Shown here: one piece after another, positions 32,076-56,490 of the stretch | Layout of the letters: the number at the start of each line of letters is the position of its first letter | Position numbering within the stretch: position 1 is the first letter of the stretch | NCBI GenBank assembly: GCA_014896305.1 | Contig: JADBKQ010000002.1 | Location: forward strand, 129,670 to 193,669 | Direction of reading: 5' to 3' | Origin: Limnochordaceae bacterium | GTDB taxonomy: Bacteria; Bacillota; Limnochordia; Limnochordales; DUMU01 | DNA: 64,000 nt | Notes under the pieces: model-generated | The model's input: the letters and a program-made list of their open reading frames with translations, nothing else | The model's database searches: none | What the model was told of the DNA's origin: nothing | Position numbers and translations under genes: made by a program

Positions 32076-33779
32076 TTGGAGGTACGGAAGGCGGCAAAAC
32101 AAGGCTGGCAACAGGTTGAGGGGCTCTGGCATCGCCTGCCCCGCCTGGGCCGCGCGGGTCTGGGGATAGGCTTGCTCCTGATTCTGGCGATGCCACTGAT
32201 GCTGCCTCACTGGCTCAAACCGCACTATGCGCCGCTGTTCACCGGCTTGCAGACGTCAGAGGCCGCCCAAATCGTCTCCTTCTTGCAGGAAAAGAAAGTT
32301 CCTTATCAACTGGCCGAAGGCGGCACTGCCATTTTGGTGCCGGACAAGCAAGTCTACGACCTGCGGCTGCAAATCGCTGGCGCTGGGCTACCGGGCGATA
32401 GCGTGGTCGGTTTCGAGTTGCTCAACCAGTCCAACCTGGGGCTCACCGACTTTGAACGCCGGGCCCGCTACAACTGGGCGCTGCAAGGGGAGCTGACCCG
32501 GACCATCGAGAAACTGGACGGAGTGGAAGAAGCTCGGGTACACCTGGTCATCCCGGAGCCTTCCGTTTTCGTCCGCAGCACTCCTTCTCCCTCGGCGTCC
32601 GTCTTCGTACGCTTGACCCCCGGCCACACGCTGGCTCCGGAACAAGTGCGAGCCATCACCACCCTGGTTTCACGCAGTGTGCCCGGACTTAAGGAGTCTG
32701 ACGTCGTGGTGGTGGATCAGGCCGGCCAGGTGCTCACCGACCAGCTGGATTCGGCTCTTTCACCCGTCTCGACCAATGCGGCCGCTCAACGCTACGAACT
32801 CACCCGTCAGGTGGAAAGCGAACTCGAACAGCGCATCCGCACCATGTTGGAACAGGCCTTCGGCCTGGGTCAAACGGTCGTCCGGGTCAGCGCCACCCTC
32901 GACTTCGACCTGCGTGAGCAGCGGGCCGAGCAGTTTGCGCCCGTCAGCGGCAGCGATCGGGGCGTCCTCCGCAGCGAACAACTGCAGGACGAATCCAGTA
33001 CCAGTACTGACAGCACCAACCCGATGGCAGGGGTGCCTGGCATCGCCAGCAACGTGCCGGGATACGCTGCCCTGGCCGCCAGCCCTGCTGGTACGACCAG
33101 CAGCACGAAAAGCAGCAGCATTCGCAATTACGAGGTGAACCGGACCGAGTCCTATTTCTCTCCCGCCCCGGGTACGATCCGCCGCCTGTCCGTCGCCGTT
33201 TTGGTGAACCAGGATATCCCTCCTACGCTGCAGCCGCAGCTGGAGGCGGCCGTAGCCTCGGCCGCCGGCATCGACCGTACGCGCGGCGATCAGTTAACGG
33301 TCGTCTCTGTACCTTTCTTTAACCGCACGGTTCAGCCCCAACCGACGGCGGTTCCGTCGGGCCGGCCCTCCATCTGGTGGTGGGTGGCATTGGCTGCCAC
33401 CTTGCTGGGAGTCCTGCTGACGATGGGCCTGCTCATTCGGGATGTCCGGCAGCGGCGGGCGGTTTCCTTCGGCCAAGAACTGGCGCAGGCCTCGAGCGAG
33501 TTGGTGAAACAGGAGATGCCGCAAGTAGGGGCGGAGAGGGCGGAGGAGGGAGTGACTGGTAAAGCTGAACCGGCCCAGGTTCTTCCTCCGGAGGGGGTCA
33601 CCGATGAGAATCCGGTGGTTCTAGGAGACGAAGAGACAGTTCGACGGCAATTGCAAAAGGTCGTGACTCGCCTGGCCCAAGAAGACCCGGAGGGGTTCAT
33701 CCGGACTTTGCAGGTCTGGCTCTCTGAAGATGAAATGTCCGGTGGAGGCCGGCCTCATCCTAAAGGAGGAGCGTCCTGA
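32076..33779 (+). CDS. fliF: Flagellar MS-ring protein FliF
   Basis: YAPLFTGLQTSEAAQIVSFLQEKKVPYQLAEGGTAILVP, ARVHLVIPEPSVFV, NYEVNRTESYFSPAPGTIRRLSVAVLVN. Confidence 0.96.
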   Translation: MEVRKAAKQGWQQVEGLWHRLPRLGRAGLGIGLLLILAMPLMLPHWLKPHYAPLFTGLQTSEAAQIVSFLQEKKVPYQLAEGGTAILVPDKQVYDLRLQIAGAGLPGDSVVGFELLNQSNLGLTDFERRARYNWALQGELTRTIEKLDGVEEARVHLVIPEPSVFVRSTPSPSASVFVRLTPGHTLAPEQVRAITTLVSRSVPGLKESDVVVVDQAGQVLTDQLDSALSPVSTNAAAQRYELTRQVESELEQRIRTMLEQAFGLGQTVVRVSATLDFDLREQRAEQFAPVSGSDRGVLRSEQLQDESSTSTDSTNPMAGVPGIASNVPGYAALAASPAGTTSSTKSSSIRNYEVNRTESYFSPAPGTIRRLSVAVLVNQDIPPTLQPQLEAAVASAAGIDRTRGDQLTVVSVPFFNRTVQPQPTAVPSGRPSIWWWVALAATLLGVLLTMGLLIRDVRQRRAVSFGQELAQASSELVKQEMPQVGAERAEEGVTGKAEPAQVLPPEGVTDENPVVLGDEETVRRQLQKVVTRLAQEDPEGFIRTLQVWLSEDEMSGGGRPHPKGGAS

Positions 33780-34807
33780 TGCCAAGTCCACGCTGGCGCA
33801 CCCGGATTCGCCCGCACACACCCCGTCGCAAGGCGGCGGTGGTCCTTCTGATGATCGGCCCCGAAGCTGGCAGCACCATCCTGCCCAAGTTGAGGGAAGA
33901 TGACGTAGAACTGCTGACCCAGGAGGTCGCCGGGTTGGGAGAGGTCACTCCGGGCGAAAGCCGGCAGGTGCTCGAGGAGTTTCTCCGGTTGTATCAGAGC
34001 CATGCTGGCACCCTGCTCGGCGATTGGACTTCGGTACAGCAGCTACTGGAGCAAAGCTTGGGGCCGGAGCGTGCTGCTGCTCTACTGGAGCGGCTTACCG
34101 GCGGCGTGGGGGGACGTCCCTTCTCGTTCATCCGGCAGATTGACCCTCAGCAGCTGGGTACTTTCTTGGTTCACGAGCATCCTCAAACCATCGCCCTGGT
34201 CCTGGCTTACCTGCGGCCCGAGCAATCGGGAGAGGTCCTGGCCATGCTCCCCGAGGACGTTCAGGCTGAAGTCGTACTGCGCCTGGCCACGCTGGACCGG
34301 GCCTCCCCGGATGTACTGCAAGAAGTGGAGGAGGCGCTGCGCCAGCGCTTCACGGAGGTCAACAGCTCCGAACTGGCTGTGGCCGGGGGCGTGGAGGCGG
34401 CCGCCGCCGTCCTCAACCAGGTCGACGGCAGTACCGAGAAAAGCATCCTGGATGCGTTGTCTGCTCGCCATCCTGAATTGGCCGAGGAGATCAAACGGCG
34501 TCTGTTTGTCTTCGATGACCTGGTTAAGCTGGACAACCGGACCATCCAGCGGATCTTGCGGGAGGTGGACATGAAAGACTTGACGCTGGCGTTGAAAGGT
34601 GCGGCTGAACCGGTGACACAAGCGATCTTCCGCAACATGTCTAAACGAGCCGTGGAGATGGTCAAAGAAGAAATCCAGTACATGGGCCCGGTCAGGGTTC
34701 GCGACGTCGAAGAGGCGCAGGCAAAGGTAGTCGCTGTGGTGCGGCGGCTGGAGGAAGCAGGTGAGATCGTTGTCGCAACCGGCGGAGAAGACGAGGTCAT
34801 CGTCTAG
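33779..34807 (+). CDS. fliG: Flagellar motor switch protein FliG
   Basis: FSFIRQIDPQQLGTFLVHEHPQTIALVLAYL, LFVFDDLVKLDNRTIQRILREVD, EEIQYMGPVRVRDVEEAQ. Confidence 0.96.
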   Translation: MPSPRWRTRIRPHTPRRKAAVVLLMIGPEAGSTILPKLREDDVELLTQEVAGLGEVTPGESRQVLEEFLRLYQSHAGTLLGDWTSVQQLLEQSLGPERAAALLERLTGGVGGRPFSFIRQIDPQQLGTFLVHEHPQTIALVLAYLRPEQSGEVLAMLPEDVQAEVVLRLATLDRASPDVLQEVEEALRQRFTEVNSSELAVAGGVEAAAAVLNQVDGSTEKSILDALSARHPELAEEIKRRLFVFDDLVKLDNRTIQRILREVDMKDLTLALKGAAEPVTQAIFRNMSKRAVEMVKEEIQYMGPVRVRDVEEAQAKVVAVVRRLEEAGEIVVATGGEDEVIV

Positions 34808-45059: not shown

Positions 45060-45867
45060 AACCAGGCGCGCCGAATCCTTGTCCAGGGAGTCCGCTCCCC
45101 CCCGCCGGGCTCGCATTCCGATTCCGCGTCGTCCAGTCGAGGGTTCCGATGCGAGTGACGCCGACGTCTGGTTGACTACGTACGCCGACCTGATCAGCTT
45201 GATGCTGACGCTCTTCGTGGCATTGTTCGCGTTTGCCAATATCGACCAGCAACGGTTCATGAACGTAATCAGCTCTGTCCAGGGAGCACTGGGGGTACCC
45301 CCTGGTCAGCGTTTGGGGTCCGGCGGGATAGCTATGTCTCCCTGGCTGATGAAGGCGCAACAGGAACGCCAGCAATTGCAGCAAGTGATGGCCCAGCTTC
45401 AGGCCGTGCTCCCGCCGCCCGGCCAAAGCGGGATCTCTGTCGTGCAGGAAGAACGGGGGATCGTTGTGCGTTTTTCGGATCAGGCTCTCTTTGACGTCGG
45501 CCAGGCCGATTTGCGGCCCGAAGCTCAAGAGGTACTCAAGCAGGTGGTCCCGATTCTGCGGCGAATCGACAACCCGATTCGAGCCGAGGGGCATACCGAC
45601 AACCTGCCCATACGGACCTCCCGCTTTCCGACCAACTGGGAGCTTTCCACCGCCCGGGCGTCCATGGTGGTCCGCTTCTTGGCGGAGCAGGGGATAGACG
45701 AGCATCGGCTTTCGGCTGCCGGGTATGGGGAACTGCGGCCGATTGCCAGCAACGCGACCCCCGAGGGACGGGCCCGGAATCGCCGCGTGGATCTCGTGAT
45801 TCTCAGTCAAAGTGAGTCTCATAACGAGCCCAACCCATCGACGCCGAGAGGAAGTGCCGGCACATGA
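45043..45867 (+). CDS. motB: Flagellar motor stator protein MotB
   Basis: DVWLTTYADLISLMLTLFVALFAFANID (stator Asp) and OmpA-like EGHTDNLPI...NWELSTARASMVVRFL. Confidence 0.95.
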   Translation: MAPTTRTRRAESLSRESAPPRRARIPIPRRPVEGSDASDADVWLTTYADLISLMLTLFVALFAFANIDQQRFMNVISSVQGALGVPPGQRLGSGGIAMSPWLMKAQQERQQLQQVMAQLQAVLPPPGQSGISVVQEERGIVVRFSDQALFDVGQADLRPEAQEVLKQVVPILRRIDNPIRAEGHTDNLPIRTSRFPTNWELSTARASMVVRFLAEQGIDEHRLSAAGYGELRPIASNATPEGRARNRRVDLVILSQSESHNEPNPSTPRGSAGT

Positions 45868-46805
45868 AAACAGAGACCGCCCGCACCGCGAGGTCGATCG
45901 CCCAGCGCTGGCAGGCCGAACTCTTGAACGGGTTGCGCCTGCGCGCTCGAGTAGAGTGGCAGTCGGCTCGCACCCTGCGTATCAGTGAGCTGGTTCAGGA
46001 CCTGCCGCCGTTATCCGTGGGGGTGTTGCCGGTGACAGCCCCCGCACCGGTCAACAGCCAGATGGGCGAGAAACCTTTTACGACCAGCGCAGCAATGGCC
46101 ACGACCGCAAGCGGCTGGAGGGCTGCCAGCCGCCCGGCAAACCCGCTTCCGCCCACCCCCTTGCTCATTCTGCCCACGCCTCTGGTGCTGGCGCTGCTGG
46201 ACCGGCGCCTGGGGGGAGCAGGGGAGTGGCCCCGGTACGCCCGAACCCTGAGCGTACTGGAGGAGAAAGCCTTTCAACCGCTGGCAATGCGGCTCATGAG
46301 CTCGCTGTCCCAAACCGGGCTGGCCCCTTCGGTGCAGACCGAGGGGGTGCAGTCGCCGGCAGCGGAGTCGCTAGGGTCGTCGACTCCGGCGGCTGGTCGC
46401 CCCACCCTGGTGGCAGCCCGGGCCTACCTCACCCCCTGGTCTCTCCGCTCCATCGGGGTACTCTCGTTCGAGTGGAGCTGGCAGGGGCGAAGCATGCCCG
46501 TCTTTTGTCTGGTCGAGCCTTTTCAAATCGAAGACGTCAGCGAGGCAGCGCCGGTCCCTGTCACCGTGCAGCTGGCCACCCTCTCACTCACCCTCGGCGA
46601 TCTGCTGGGCCTGGAACGGGGGGACGTCATCTGCCTGCCGCGCTCATTGCAGGATCCAGTCACTGTCTGCGTGCAGGGGACGCCCCGCTGGTGGGCGATG
46701 GCCGGCCAGCGGGAAGGGCGGTTGGCGGTTCAACTATTGAAGGAATGGAACGCACAGGAGGATGAGCAGGATGAGCCACCCGCTGCTGTCTCGAGCGGAG
46801 ATTGA
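45864..46805 (+). CDS. fliM: Flagellar motor switch protein FliM, lacking N-terminal CheY-docking peptide
   Basis: LVLALLDRRLGGAGEW (GGxG-type motif) and C-terminal SpoA-like VTVQLATLSLTLGDLLGLERGDVICL; ATGA overlap with motB fixes the start. Confidence 0.8.
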   Translation: MKTETARTARSIAQRWQAELLNGLRLRARVEWQSARTLRISELVQDLPPLSVGVLPVTAPAPVNSQMGEKPFTTSAAMATTASGWRAASRPANPLPPTPLLILPTPLVLALLDRRLGGAGEWPRYARTLSVLEEKAFQPLAMRLMSSLSQTGLAPSVQTEGVQSPAAESLGSSTPAAGRPTLVAARAYLTPWSLRSIGVLSFEWSWQGRSMPVFCLVEPFQIEDVSEAAPVPVTVQLATLSLTLGDLLGLERGDVICLPRSLQDPVTVCVQGTPRWWAMAGQREGRLAVQLLKEWNAQEDEQDEPPAAVSSGD

Positions 46806-49731: not shown

Positions 49732-51801
49732 ATGGCCGGACTGGGAACGAGCGGGACGGCTGATCTGTCTGTGCTGGCCACACTCTTTCTGGCCACCTGG
49801 ATGCGGACGATCGGAGTCCTCTTGCCACTACCCCTCTTCCAGGTCCCCGGTCTGCCTCCCACCTGGCGGGGCGGCCTGGCGGCGTTGCTCGGCCTTGCCC
49901 TCGTGCCCACGGCCCAGCAGGCAACGGCGACCCCGCCTGTCGGCCTGCCCCCATTTTCCTGGTCAGCGGCGTCCGATTTGATGGTGCTGGCGCTGGTCCA
50001 ATTGGCCATTGGGCTGGCCATGGGCTTTCTGTTGCGCTTGGCCTTCGTGGCGGTGGAGGTGGCGGGTGTCCTGGTTGATCTTCCACTCGGTTTCGGCATG
50101 GACGCTCTGCTGGATCCTCTCACCGGCTCGGCCAGCCCGCTTTTTGGGCGGTTCTACCTGCTGCTGGCCCTCGTGAGCTTCATGGTCAGCGGCGGCCTGG
50201 ATGCTCTGGTGCGCACTCTGGATGAAAGCTTTCGCTGGCTGCCGCCAGGGGTTTCACCCCAACTATCCTGGGTGGGGCCGTTCTTGGTCCGCGGGCTGGA
50301 CGAGTTTTTCCTCACCGGTCTGCGACTGAGCCTTCCCCTGACGGTCGGGCTCTTCGTGGCGGACGTCGCGGTCGGTTTGCTGGCCCGAGCCACCCCGCAA
50401 CTCAACCTGTTCACCGTTGGCTTCCCCCTCAAAGAAGTCGGCGGTTTGCTGCTGGTCTGGATCACGGTGCCACTGACCGCCGCCGCGATGGGGGCTCTCT
50501 TCCAATTTGGCGGACAAGCCTGGGAGTGGGTCTCCCGTCTGATCCAGGGACTGGTACCTCGTGCAACGCCGGGCTTCGCAGGGGGAACCGCCTGGGGGAT
50601 CGTTGCCAGCAGTGCGATTTGGGCGCGGCCCGAGCCGCTTGCTTACCGGCGTCGCCAGGGGGATGGTCGCAAGCTGAACCGTAAGCGGTTCAACCTGCAA
50701 CTCTTTGCCGAGGAGAAAAGCGAGGCGCCCACCCCTCGTCGCCGGGAGGAGAGCCGGCGGCGGGGTCAAGTGGCCCGTTCCCCGGAATTTGCGGTTGGCA
50801 CGGTCTGCATCGCGGTAGCCGTCGTGGTGCGCTGGCTTGCTCCCTGGATCCGGCAGGCCGCTTTGGCGTTGACGGGACCGGATTGGCAGGCAGCCCTGGA
50901 CGCGGCCGGCCAGGCCGACAGCTTGACCACTGCCAGTCTGCCGCGCCTGGCCGGCCCCTTGTTGCGGAGCGGCGCGATGCTGCTGTGGCCGATCCCCGTC
51001 ACTGCCCTGGTCATCGCCAGCCTCACCTATCTCGCTCAAGCAGGCGGTGTGGTCACTGCGAAAGGGCTGGTGCCCGACCTCAACCGTCTCAACCCCCTGA
51101 CTGGGTTCGCACGCTGGTTCTCTTGGAGATCGCTCCTGGAGTTGGGAAAGTCTCTGATCAAGGCAGCGATTATCGGCTACGCTGCCTATAGCCTGATCGC
51201 CGGCCATCTCAACGAGTTGCCGGGCCTGCTTCGCTCTCCTCCTGGTTCGGCCGTGGGGGCTGTTGCGGGGTGGGTCTATGCACTGTTTGTGCATGTGGGC
51301 CTTGCCATCTTTCTCTTGGGGGTGGGGGACTACGCGTTCAACCGGGTGGAGTTAGAGCGGCAGTTGCGCATGACCCGAGAAGAAGTGAAAGAAGAGCTGC
51401 GGCAGACCGAAGGCGACCCCATGGTGAAGAGCAGGCTGCGCCAGCGTCAACGGCAACTGGCCCGCAGCCGGCAGATGACCGACGTGAAAAAGGCGGACGT
51501 CCTCATCACCAACCCCACCCACGTGGCCGTAGGGTTGCGGTATGATCCGACCGTGATGCGGGCGCCACGAGTGCTGGCCCGGGGGGCGGGGGTCTTTGCG
51601 CAGCGCCTGCGGCAGATCGCGCGGCAGGCCGGGGTGCCGGTCATCGAAAATCCGCCTCTGGCCCGTTCCCTCTACCGGGCCGTACGGGTCGGGCAAGAGA
51701 TACCGGCCGACTTGTACAAGGCGGTGGCCGAGGTATTGGCCTATGTTTACCAGCACTGGCCAGAACGGCGACCGCGGGGGCCGGATTCGCCGGTAAGCTG
51801 A
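49732..51801 (+). CDS. FliR-FlhB fusion export gate protein
   Basis: Single 689-aa ORF: FliR-like half followed by RFNLQLFAEEKSEAPTPRRREESRRRGQVARSPE and FlhB autocleavage site ITNPTHVAVGLRYD. Confidence 0.94.
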   Translation: MAGLGTSGTADLSVLATLFLATWMRTIGVLLPLPLFQVPGLPPTWRGGLAALLGLALVPTAQQATATPPVGLPPFSWSAASDLMVLALVQLAIGLAMGFLLRLAFVAVEVAGVLVDLPLGFGMDALLDPLTGSASPLFGRFYLLLALVSFMVSGGLDALVRTLDESFRWLPPGVSPQLSWVGPFLVRGLDEFFLTGLRLSLPLTVGLFVADVAVGLLARATPQLNLFTVGFPLKEVGGLLLVWITVPLTAAAMGALFQFGGQAWEWVSRLIQGLVPRATPGFAGGTAWGIVASSAIWARPEPLAYRRRQGDGRKLNRKRFNLQLFAEEKSEAPTPRRREESRRRGQVARSPEFAVGTVCIAVAVVVRWLAPWIRQAALALTGPDWQAALDAAGQADSLTTASLPRLAGPLLRSGAMLLWPIPVTALVIASLTYLAQAGGVVTAKGLVPDLNRLNPLTGFARWFSWRSLLELGKSLIKAAIIGYAAYSLIAGHLNELPGLLRSPPGSAVGAVAGWVYALFVHVGLAIFLLGVGDYAFNRVELERQLRMTREEVKEELRQTEGDPMVKSRLRQRQRQLARSRQMTDVKKADVLITNPTHVAVGLRYDPTVMRAPRVLARGAGVFAQRLRQIARQAGVPVIENPPLARSLYRAVRVGQEIPADLYKAVAEVLAYVYQHWPERRPRGPDSPVS

Positions 51802-51881: not shown

Positions 51882-54068
51882 ATGGCTCAATCGTGGCAGA
51901 GTGCCACCGGCACTCACAAGGCAGGAAGCTGGGCAGAAAGGCTTGGCGGGAAACAAACCTGGCTTGGTCTGGCCGATATGGGAGTGATCGGCCTGGTGAT
52001 GCTAGTCGTCATCATGATGGTGCTCCCCCTACCAGCCAGAGTCCTCGACTTTCTGCTGGCGGGTAACATCAGCTTCTCGCTGCTAATTCTGGCTCTCAGC
52101 ATGAACGTCCGCCACGTTTTGGATCTGTCGGCGTTTCCTACGATCCTGCTGGTGGCCACCCTCTTCCGGCTGGCCCTCAATGTCTCCTCGACCCGGCTGA
52201 TTTTGTTGCATGGATATGCCGGCGAAGTGATTAATGCGTTTGGCCACTTTGTCGTAGGTGGCAACTACGTGGTGGGCGCTGTGGTCTTCCTCATCCTGGT
52301 CATCATCCAGTTCGTCGTGATCACCCGCGGGGCTGAACGGGTGGCGGAGGTGGCCGCCCGGTTCACGCTGGACGCGATGCCCGGCAAGCAGATGAGCATC
52401 GACGCGGATCTCAATGCCGGGATCATCGACGAGGATCAGGCCCGCGCCCGCCGGGCAGCAGTGGAGCGAGAGGCAGACTTCTATGGTGCCATGGACGGGG
52501 CGAGCAAGTTCGTCAAGGGGGATGCGATTGCCGGCATCATCATTACGGTGATCAACATTCTGGCGGGATTCGTAGTCGGCCTGCTGCAGCAGGGGCTCAG
52601 CCTGGCCGAGGCATTACAGCGCTATACCCTGCTGACAGTGGGCGACGGGCTGGTGGCCCAGATACCCGCCCTGCTGGTCTCCACTGCTACCGGCGTCATC
52701 GTGACCCGGGCGGCAGCAGAAAACAACCTCGGACGGGAGGTCAGCCGGCAACTGACGGCCGATCCGCAGGTGCTCGCCGTGGCGGCAACCACCCTGGGAT
52801 TGCTGGGATTGGTGCCGGGCCTGCCGAAGCTCTCTTTTTTGACTTTGGCGGGGCTGCTGGGCGGCATCGCTTACGTCCTGCACCGACAGACGCCGCTACC
52901 CGCGGGGGCGACCGGAACCGCCGGGACAGGCCGCGCCAGGACCCTCGCCCCAGCTACCGTCGCCGGAGGAAGTGGGGCAAAGGAAGCTGCGGCCACCGGC
53001 GAACGGTCCTCGGAGGAGAGCGACATTCTCGCACATCTGCAAGTAGATCCCTTCGAGCTCAATTTGGGGTACAGTCTGTTGCCTCTGGTCGACAACAGCA
53101 GCGGCGGCGACCTGCTCACCCGCATCTCGGCCATTCGGCGGCGGCTGGCTTGGGACCTGGGCTTCGTCGTTCCGCCGATCCGCATTCGGGACAGTGTGGA
53201 GCTGCGGCCGAATGAATACCGCTTCCTGCTACGGGGGGTTGAGGTAGCCCGGGGGGAGTTGCTCCTCGACCGGCTGCTGGCGATGAACCCCGGTTCACAG
53301 GAGGCACCGCCTGGCGGCGTTGAAACCAAAGAGCCGGCGTTTGGCCTGCCCGCCTGGTGGGTACGAACAGAGGACCGGGAGAAACTGGAGACTTCTGGTT
53401 TTACGGTCGTCGAACCCGCAGCCGTGCTGGCCACTCACTTGACCGAGACGCTGCGTAGCTGTGCCGGCCAACTGCTCGACCGGCAAGAGATCCGTCGCCT
53501 GCTGGACGCGCTGCGGGAGAATTACCCGGCCGTGGTGGACGAAGTGACCCAGGTAGCCACCCTGGGCGACCTGCAAAAGGTGATGCAGGGCCTGCTGGCG
53601 GAGAACGTCTCCTGCCGCGACCTGGTCACGATCCTGGAGACTGTGGCGGACACCGCCCGTCAAACCAAAGACCCGGTCGCCCTGGTGCAGGCCGTTCGTC
53701 TGGCCCTGCGGCGACAGATCACCCGCGCTTTGTTGACGGAGGATGGGCTGTTACCCGCCATCACGCTCTCGCCCCGGGGTGAGCGTTACCTCCTGGAGAG
53801 CTTACAGGCAGCTCCTGGGGGAGGGCAACTGCCGGCCATAGACCCCCAGGAGCTGCGGCAATTGGCGGAGCGGCTTCGGACCCCCGTGCAGCAGGCAGCG
53901 CAGGAAGGCGTTCAACCGGTACTGCTGGTCTCAGCCGAGCTACGCTATCCGCTGCGGCAATTGTTGGAGCGTAGCTTTCCCCACCTGGCCGTGCTGGCCT
54001 ATTCCGAAGTGGCGCCTGGTATCTCGGTGAAGAGTTATGGAATGGTGGTGTGGCCTGATGAAGGTTAG
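51882..54068 (+). CDS. flhA: Flagellar export protein FlhA
   Basis: FSLLILALSMNVRHVLDLSAFPTILLVATLFRLALNVSSTRLIL, ARFTLDAMPGKQMSIDADLNAGIIDEDQAR, GASKFVKGDAIAGIII. Confidence 0.97.
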   Translation: MAQSWQSATGTHKAGSWAERLGGKQTWLGLADMGVIGLVMLVVIMMVLPLPARVLDFLLAGNISFSLLILALSMNVRHVLDLSAFPTILLVATLFRLALNVSSTRLILLHGYAGEVINAFGHFVVGGNYVVGAVVFLILVIIQFVVITRGAERVAEVAARFTLDAMPGKQMSIDADLNAGIIDEDQARARRAAVEREADFYGAMDGASKFVKGDAIAGIIITVINILAGFVVGLLQQGLSLAEALQRYTLLTVGDGLVAQIPALLVSTATGVIVTRAAAENNLGREVSRQLTADPQVLAVAATTLGLLGLVPGLPKLSFLTLAGLLGGIAYVLHRQTPLPAGATGTAGTGRARTLAPATVAGGSGAKEAAATGERSSEESDILAHLQVDPFELNLGYSLLPLVDNSSGGDLLTRISAIRRRLAWDLGFVVPPIRIRDSVELRPNEYRFLLRGVEVARGELLLDRLLAMNPGSQEAPPGGVETKEPAFGLPAWWVRTEDREKLETSGFTVVEPAAVLATHLTETLRSCAGQLLDRQEIRRLLDALRENYPAVVDEVTQVATLGDLQKVMQGLLAENVSCRDLVTILETVADTARQTKDPVALVQAVRLALRRQITRALLTEDGLLPAITLSPRGERYLLESLQAAPGGGQLPAIDPQELRQLAERLRTPVQQAAQEGVQPVLLVSAELRYPLRQLLERSFPHLAVLAYSEVAPGISVKSYGMVVWPDEG

Positions 54069-55173
54069 AGATTTCGTTGCCGACTCGTTTGCGCAGGCGT
54101 TTGCCCGTATTCGTCAGGAGATGGGGCCAGACGCGTATATTGTTGCCACCCGAACCATCCGTCGGAGTTGGCCCTGGCCTCGCTCGGCTGGCGCCCCAGC
54201 GCGAGTCGTAGTGACTGCCGCCCTGCCGCCGGCGGCAAAAGACCTGGGTTCAAACGTGGCTGGCAGTCCACAGCCCGGCTCCTGGTCACAACGTCCGTCT
54301 CGGCCTGCCGAGGATGCAGCCAATGGTCCCGCATCCATGGTTCAAGCAGAGGCAGGCAGCTTGGAGAAAGAGGTAGAGAAAGAGGACGTTCGACCATCCC
54401 CTGGCCCGGGTTGGCTGGAACGCCTGCAACAGGCAGGTTGGCGAGAGGAGATTATATCCTGGCTCGAGAAGGAATGGCAACGGCAGGCGGCGGTTCTGGA
54501 CCCGGATGACTGGTCTCATTGTGTGCGCCCCTGGCTCAAAGAGGAGTTGATCTCCCGGGTCACCACCAGCCCGCCCTGGCTCGATCTGCCTGACCAGGCG
54601 CTCCTGGTTGTTGCCCTGGGGGCAAAAGGAAGCGGCAAAGAGGGGGTGGGACGCCAGGTAACGGACAGTTATCGACAAATCGTGGGCTGGCGGACCTGCC
54701 CGGTGCAGTTGAGCCTGGGGGATGTGGAGCAGGGGCGCTGGCAGCCTACGGCTCGTTCCCGCAGGCTGCACGACTTGATCTGGGTGGAGCTGCCCGATCT
54801 CGACGCCCTCACGCCCCCGCAGGCGTCCGCCTGGGTGAGGCAGGTCCGATCCTGGCACCCGGATGAGATCCACTGGGTGATTTCTGCGGCCCGGGCAGCC
54901 GAGGCAGATTCCCTGTGGCAGCTGGCGGCTCCGTTCGCACCCACCCACCTGACGGTGACGGACGCACAGCAACCGGGAGACTCCATCTTTGCCTATGAAC
55001 AGGCCTGGAAGACCGGCCTGGCCCTGCGATTTCTGGGGCGCCACCGGCCGGGTGGCACAGGCGAGGAGTCACAGGATCTCGAGATCGTGGACGGGGCAGA
55101 GCTCGTGGAAACGATGATCGCCGAGGTTGAAGCGGGATCGGGCAAGCCATCCGAAATTCGCCGGGAGGTGTAG
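54058..55173 (+). CDS. flhF: FlhF-like protein with degenerate SRP-type GTPase domain
   Basis: N-terminal MKVRDFVADSFAQAFARIRQEMGPDAYIVATRTIRR and residual GTPase region GAKGSGKEGVGR ... PDEIHWVISAA ... THLTVTDAQQPGDSIF; directly after flhA. Confidence 0.78.
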   Translation: MKVRDFVADSFAQAFARIRQEMGPDAYIVATRTIRRSWPWPRSAGAPARVVVTAALPPAAKDLGSNVAGSPQPGSWSQRPSRPAEDAANGPASMVQAEAGSLEKEVEKEDVRPSPGPGWLERLQQAGWREEIISWLEKEWQRQAAVLDPDDWSHCVRPWLKEELISRVTTSPPWLDLPDQALLVVALGAKGSGKEGVGRQVTDSYRQIVGWRTCPVQLSLGDVEQGRWQPTARSRRLHDLIWVELPDLDALTPPQASAWVRQVRSWHPDEIHWVISAARAAEADSLWQLAAPFAPTHLTVTDAQQPGDSIFAYEQAWKTGLALRFLGRHRPGGTGEESQDLEIVDGAELVETMIAEVEAGSGKPSEIRREV

Positions 55174-55178
55174 GTGCC

Positions 55179-55628
55179 ATGAAGTGGGTGAATGTCTTCC
55201 GTCGTCCTCTGCCGAGTATGAGGGCGAGCGAAGAGGGGCCGTCCCAGCGTCGGCTGCACTACCGTCTACCGATCATGCTTCCGTTCGTCTGGCGGCTCAT
55301 ACCTGGCGAAGGAGTGGGCAACGCCAGTGACTACAGCTGGTCCCAGGCGGTAACCCACGACCTGAGCGCCGGAGGCCTCAGCTTTCTTGCCGCCGACCGC
55401 AGCATTGGCGAAAGGCTGCAATTGCGGTTGCCACTGCCGGATGGGGAGGTCTCGGTCACCGGAGAGATCATCCGGTTGCAGCCGCTGGGGGATGCGCCCA
55501 GACCCACCGGTGAGCAGATGGTGGGTATCCGGTTCATTGATTTGTCCCCCCGGGCGGAGCAGCAGATCGTCCGTTACATCTTCCAGGTGGAGTCGAGCCG
55601 ACGCCGGCTGCAGGAAGGGACCGACTGA
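55179..55628 (+). CDS. PilZ-domain (c-di-GMP-binding) protein
   Basis: RLHYR (RxxxR) and DLSAGG (D/NxSxxG) PilZ motifs, GIRFIDLSPRAEQQIVRYIF. Confidence 0.9.
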   Translation: MKWVNVFRRPLPSMRASEEGPSQRRLHYRLPIMLPFVWRLIPGEGVGNASDYSWSQAVTHDLSAGGLSFLAADRSIGERLQLRLPLPDGEVSVTGEIIRLQPLGDAPRPTGEQMVGIRFIDLSPRAEQQIVRYIFQVESSRRRLQEGTD

Positions 55629-55692: not shown

Positions 55693-56490
55693 ATGGCCAT
55701 TCAGCGCAGTGAGCTTGCACCGGAAGGGGCCACCAGCGGGCAGGCGGAACAATTGTGGCGCCAGTACAAGAAAACGGGCGACCCGCGCACGCGCGAACGG
55801 CTGGTTTTGGCTGCCACACCGTTGGTCAAGTATTGCGCCGGCCGGATCGCGATCGGCTTGCCTCCCAACGTTGAAATGGACGACTTGATCAGTTATGGGA
55901 TCTTTGGCTTGCTGGACGCCGTGGAGAAATTCGACCCGAAGAAGGGCGTCAAGTTCGAAACGTACGCTATCGCACGCATCCGCGGCGCGATTTTGGACGG
56001 GCTGCGGGCAGCCGATTGGGTGCCCCGCTCCGTGCGGCAGAAGGCGCGGGAGGTGGAACGGGTGGTCGCCCGCCTGGAAAGCCGGTTAGGGCGTCCGGCG
56101 GCAGACGAGGAGGTCGCCCGCGAGTTGGGGGTGGATGTGCAGCGCTATCATCAGATTCTGCAGGACGTCCAGGGAGCAGCCCTCCTGTCGCTTGAAGAGG
56201 GCTGGGTCGACGAGAGTGGCGAGCTGGAATACTCCCTGGCCCAATTGGTGGTCGACCCGTCCAACCAGGATCCGGGGCAGGCACTGGAGTTCGAAGAGGG
56301 ACGACGGCGCCTGGCCGAGGCCATCGAACGGCTTCCGGAAAGAGAACGATTGGTGATCACGCTATATTATTATGAAGGTTTGACGCTCAAGGAGATCGGC
56401 GCCGTGCTGGGGGTCTCAGAATCCCGAGTGTCGCAGATGCACACCAAGGCGATCCTGCGGCTGCGCGGCTATCTGACCGCGCCTGACTGA
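55693..56490 (+). CDS. fliA: RNA polymerase sigma factor FliA/SigD/WhiG family
   Basis: [114 protein letters not shown]. Confidence 0.95.

Follow-up and report, generated by a model that had tools for sequence, protein, structure and literature searches.

A Limnochordales FlhF with a degenerate GTPase core, retained under selection without FlhG

The gene that follows flhA in the genome of a Limnochordaceae bacterium encodes an FlhF orthologue by descent that has lost its GTPase motifs, lacks the partner gene flhG and is retained under selection. Orthology, motif loss, flhG absence, selection and a shift of constraint could all be read from the sequences. FlhF is ordinarily a GTP-driven switch that sets where flagella are built. 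We consider it reasonably likely that, in the family studied here, this SRP-type GTPase switch has become a nucleotide-independent, FliG-binding assembly factor. It is a variant within an established protein family and does not amount to a new system.

Genomes and flagellar genes

The window, that is, the whole stretch of 64,000 nucleotides that was analyzed, belongs to a genome (G000) that is 92% complete and falls in the same family (f1) as contigs DUMU01000005 and JADBKP010000006 (Limnochordales bin). As the Limnochordales family DUMU01 is reported to have three metagenome genomes (PMC11456536), we take f1 to be GTDB DUMU01. Family f1 comprises G000, G001, and G002 in two genera, with G001 and G002 forming the sister genus of the window genome. 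All three genomes are draft or metagenome-assembled and belong to one clade; the change in FlhF is therefore counted as a single evolutionary event.

The window genome encodes FliF, FliG (33779-34807), FliH, FliI, FliJ, FlgD, FlgE, FlhA, and FlhB, as well as CheW-domain proteins; a distal operon has genes similar to FlgK/FliD/FliS. Cultures of the related Geochorda, which carries flagellar genes, were nevertheless immotile (PMC11456536). At 49732-51801, FliR and FlhB are fused in a single frame, an arrangement also present in the second genus of f1; NCBIfam has a class for such fusions. The gene at the FliM position of the main flagellar operon (45864-46802) is likewise eroding in f1: Pfam FliM (PF02154) scored 28 bits in G002 and 22 bits in G001 and gave no match in the window, with FliMN_C intact. 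The genome also encodes a complete second FliM (74.7 bits) and a CheC-type FliY at G000:C56 (L155:4743-7267), adjoining fliD/fliS-like genes.

The gene downstream of flhA encodes FlhF

The locus contains the following features.

51882..54068, + strand: flhA, intact, upstream of flhF
54058..55173, + strand: flhF with a degenerate GTPase core, 371 aa, defined by frame, synteny, profile matches, and motif comparison
55174..55178, + strand: flhF-pilZ junction of 5 bases, the site of flhG in relatives
55179..55628, + strand: PilZ-domain protein, 149 aa, missing the PilZNR part that relatives have at the N-terminus
55693..56490, + strand: flagellar sigma factor, FliA/WhiG-type

The coordinates, start codon, and frame of flhF are exact (371 codons), and the 3' end of flhA shares 11 bp with the flhF start codon region. 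Across the order (f2-f4), the gene order is flhA-flhF-flhG-pilZ-sigma-rpsB-tsf-pyrH. The window has the same order minus flhG, and its flhF lies directly 3' of flhA in this conserved flagellar operon, as is characteristic of FlhF orthologues. The N-terminal ~60 residues are also characteristic, forming a beta-alpha-beta-beta unit like the FliG-interacting domain (FID). The PilZ protein that follows is 149 aa long vs 218-248 aa in relatives; the N-terminal region that it lacks is the PilZNR domain in f4 relatives.

Profile comparisons gave the same identification. A three-member f1 profile aligned over its full length with the order's intact FlhFs (hhalign, probability 99.9, E 5e-35). The NCBIfam FlhF model (TIGR03499) matched the window protein with an E-value of 1e-11 and 45 bits, which does not reach the equivalog cut-off of 174 bits; the sister-genus proteins scored 70-72 bits. 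Pfam SRP54 gave no match to the window protein. Structure prediction, a check proposed in an earlier sequence-only reading of this DNA, recovered an NG fold. The two best PDB matches of the sister-genus model (pLDDT 81) were FlhF NG structures, and the window model (pLDDT 62.5; ~85 for the N-terminal 30 residues) matched SRP-type NG domains (FtsY/SRP54) with probability 1.00. According to these models, the NG fold is present in the window protein, with lower confidence than in the sister genus.

A different protein in place of FlhF is ruled out by the synteny, the full-length profile match, and the fold. A frameshift or sequencing artefact is likewise ruled out, as the frame is open in three genomes of two genera and the neighbours, Ffh, and FtsY are intact. 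Ffh and FtsY, which the sequence-only reading had used as intact controls, are the sole PF00448 matches genome-wide; the window genome therefore has no second FlhF. With both controls intact, no SRP54 match, and only 45 bits to the FlhF model, the claim that the loss of the GTPase core is specific to this protein was supported.

The GTPase motifs were lost in steps

The degenerate motifs map as follows.

54619..54645, + strand: eroded P-loop (G1), GAKGSGKEG, residues 188-196
54688..54762, + strand: position of the G2/insertion-box segment, now deleted or no longer recognisable
54778..54804, + strand: eroded G3, IWVELPDLD for LIDTAGRS, residues 241-249
54955..54972, + strand: eroded G4, VTDAQQ for TKLDE (VTDAQQPG, residues 300-307)

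We compared the motifs of the three f1 members with those of 18 intact FlhFs of the same class. The SRP-type GTPase motifs (G1 GxxGxGK[ST]T, G3 DTAGR, and G4 TKxD) are missing from the window protein, which has lost the P-loop Thr/Ser, the Asp and Gly of G3, and the entire G4. All three replacements had been pointed out in the sequence-only reading, and each is present at the residues given above. That reading had overlooked the insertion box (DTYR..A..QLRTYA), which carries G2. This segment belongs to GTP-dependent NG homodimers. It is present in 18/18 comparison FlhFs and absent in 3/3 f1 members, with a mere scrap remaining at its former position in the window protein. The comparison FlhFs carry GPTGVGKTT (GPSGVGKTS in f6), DT[YFQ]R..A..(Q)L, DT[ATP]G, and [TS]KxDE, and FlhF is intact in all of the remaining 11 genomes of the order.

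The sister genus shows a milder state. G001 and G002 keep their P-loops (GPKAAGKST and GPPGAGKTT, respectively), with DTPALG and DTPGLS at G3 and TRVEE and TRMDE at G4. The erosion of G1 and G3 predicted from the window alone thus stands for the window protein, but the sister genus keeps GKS/GKT; G4 is altered in all three members. Because G001 and G002 retain the P-loop while the insertion box and flhG are gone in all three genomes, the loss of the insertion box and flhG is family-wide, and the decay of the P-loop and G3 is a later step confined to the window genus.

flhG is absent from the family

In f2, f3, and f4, flhF is followed by a gene for a protein with DQAxxLR and KGGVGK, and FlhG was seen fully or partly in 11/11 other genomes of the order (partly in G009 owing to contig ends). 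In the window, no flhG with an N-terminal DQAxxLR lies directly 3' of flhF, in agreement with the sequence-only reading: only 5 bp separate the flhF stop from the pilZ start. flhG is cleanly absent at this position in all three f1 genomes, and the search for a copy elsewhere found no FlhG with DQAxxLR in any of them.

Two other families also lack flhG at the locus. In f5 (G015, G016) and f6 (G017), FlhF keeps every GTPase motif and the insertion box (loci L069, L075, and L076), and no DQAxxLR match was found elsewhere in these genomes. Families f5 and f6 represent a second kind of exception to flhF-flhG pairing. In G032 (f10), neither flhF nor flhG follows flhA. In the FlhA tree, f1 forms one clade (100/100) separate from f5 and f6; flhG was therefore lost more than once, and its loss alone does not bring GTPase loss. 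A general rule that FlhG loss causes GTPase decay is ruled out by f5 and f6.

The best FlhG match in each f1 genome is a protein of ~400 residues with a PilZNR domain and a MinD/FlhG-type ATPase (319-326 bits), which lacks DQAxxLR.

L093 (G000:C1:136484-137281): PilZNR-MinD paralogue, beside parA-parB in the window genome

This paralogue occurs across the class, alongside true FlhG in relatives and at the same parA-adjacent position, and is apparently absent from f2. Given this co-occurrence, the shared position, and the missing DQAxxLR, it is a separate, older gene. A relocated FlhG was not found. The proposal that the FlhF GTPase and FlhG were lost together holds within one clade, but not as a rule (f5 and f6), nor as one step, as the sister genus still has its P-loop and DTP..L; moreover, the FlhG-like PilZNR-MinD protein persists beside parAB in the window genome.

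Selection is retained and constraint has shifted

FlhF identity within f1 is 0.38, where FlhA identity is 0.69-0.70. On the window branch, omega = 1 was rejected in a three-taxon branch test (2dlnL 24.5 for the whole gene and 11.8 for the G part), and pairwise tests in f1 likewise rejected it. Omega was 0.20 on the window branch vs 0.08 in the sister genus (2dlnL 11.7), values to be taken as rough, given the saturation at synonymous sites. The rejection of omega = 1 extends to the window branch, so flhF in the window is not a pseudogene; the dN/dS check proposed in the sequence-only reading gave the selection it had expected.

Two regions of the protein stand out.

54058..54228, + strand: FID-like domain, residues 1-57, beta-alpha-beta-beta in the model, the best conserved part in f1
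54412..54582, + strand: tryptophan-rich N-domain helices, residues 119-175, with unusually high conservation in f1

FID identity exceeds G identity by 0.23-0.27 in all three f1 pairs; the same difference averages 0.00 across 153 intact-FlhF pairs of the class and never exceeds 0.14. For the N helices, the difference from G is +0.06 to +0.22 in f1 pairs vs <=0.00 in intact pairs; ordinarily less conserved than G, they are more conserved than G in f1. By these comparisons, constraint has shifted towards the FID-like N-terminus and the N helices.

Discussion

The f1 FlhF is best read as a nucleotide-independent assembly factor because the FID and N parts are kept, an insertion-box dimer is impossible, and FlhG is absent. 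Its N-terminal domain would bind FliG, and the protein would help FliG/FliF to nucleate the basal body. FlhF would then bind no nucleotide, neither dimerising with GTP nor needing a reset by FlhG, and flagella would be unplaced or positioned via another cue. In Shewanella putrefaciens, FliG is bound by a beta-alpha-beta-beta domain (FID) that comprises the first 44-60 residues of FlhF; residues 1-60 suffice for this binding, and the NG domain is the part that attaches to the polar landmark (PMC11236974). In P. aeruginosa, flagella are still made with an FlhF lacking G, at non-polar sites and in ~65% of cells; two observations from that species speak against the present reading, namely that motility was not restored in the FlhF-BN strain and that the FlhF-FliG interaction is reportedly regulated by GTP binding (PMC12713375). 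FlhF in f1, whose members are uncultured, is probably a fixed assembly aid that has shed the GTP machinery and FlhG and kept the part known to hold the rotor protein FliG. We see an even chance that, throughout the family, the FlhF switch has naturally turned into a scaffold or chaperone for FliG that works without GTP and FlhG, its Trp-rich N domain having come under new constraint. The sequence-only reading had proposed a GTP-independent scaffold; retention under selection is borne out, and GTP independence is what we infer as the best reading.

Other explanations were weighed. The f1 FlhF might still use nucleotide (GTP/ATP), though in a simpler way than SRP-type GTPases do; the window species would then be a further-decayed outlier or a weak binder. 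The P-loops and DTPAL/DTPGL of the sister genus fit this, as do the matches of G002 to SRP54 and small-GTPase models, but we think it unlikely given that the insertion box is gone in all three members, that G4 has changed from TKxD to TRVE/TRMD in the sister genus, and that the window protein has no P-loop Thr/Ser, G3 Asp and Gly, or G4. Mere decay of flhF after the loss of flhG, with its role gone, is quite improbable: the frame is open in 3/3 genomes, omega = 1 is rejected for the G part as well, the FID and N helices are well conserved, and in two other families the GTPase stayed intact after flhG was lost. The fast divergence of FlhF relative to FlhA and the higher omega on the window branch would agree with decay.

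The PilZNR-MinD paralogue beside parAB could instead have taken the role of FlhG, regulating FlhF via a different interface. In each f1 genome it ranks first among the FlhG matches, and it has a PilZNR domain, the part missing from the window pilZ product. Its co-occurrence with true FlhG in relatives, where it is also parA-adjacent, and its lack of DQAxxLR leave this explanation a very slim chance.

None of the papers searched describes a natural pseudo-GTPase (GTPase-less) FlhF. When the f1 profile was searched against 398 sampled genomes of the phylum, no similar FlhF appeared outside the family (best outside score 88 bits vs 528-554 for members), and the top outside matches with readable motifs were ordinary FlhFs. 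If the assembly-factor reading is true, the assembly role and the spatial GTPase role of FlhF are separable by evolution, and basal-body nucleation needs only the FID plus N, the GTPase cycle serving placement and counting. In a lineage that discarded the GTPase and FlhG but keeps the FliG-binding part of FlhF under selection, nature would have carried out a separation-of-function experiment. Successive stages can be seen across the class: intact FlhF with FlhG, intact FlhF without FlhG, insertion box lost with the P-loop kept, and all motifs lost.

The FlhG DQAxxLR helix stimulates hydrolysis and converts the FlhF dimer to the monomer, and flhF and flhG are described as a consistent pair (PMC12826062); the f1 case contrasts with this view of FlhF as a GTP-controlled switch in constant pairing. 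Compared with the FlhFs of Bacillus subtilis (2px0/2px3) and S. putrefaciens (8r9r), the window protein shares the locus after flhA, the FID-like N-terminus, the linker, the N helices, and a Rossmann-like G domain whose strands follow the same order; it differs in lacking the insertion box/G2, in its decayed G1, G3, and G4, and in the absence of its FlhG partner. Within Limnochordia, f5 and f6 resemble the window in lacking flhG beside flhF but, unlike it, still have the insertion box together with every GTPase motif. The engineered P. aeruginosa FlhF-BN (PMC12713375) likewise keeps the B and N parts and has no working G domain. However, FlhF-BN is an artificial truncation, whereas the f1 FlhF is natural and family-wide and keeps a G-domain-like fold from which the motifs are gone.
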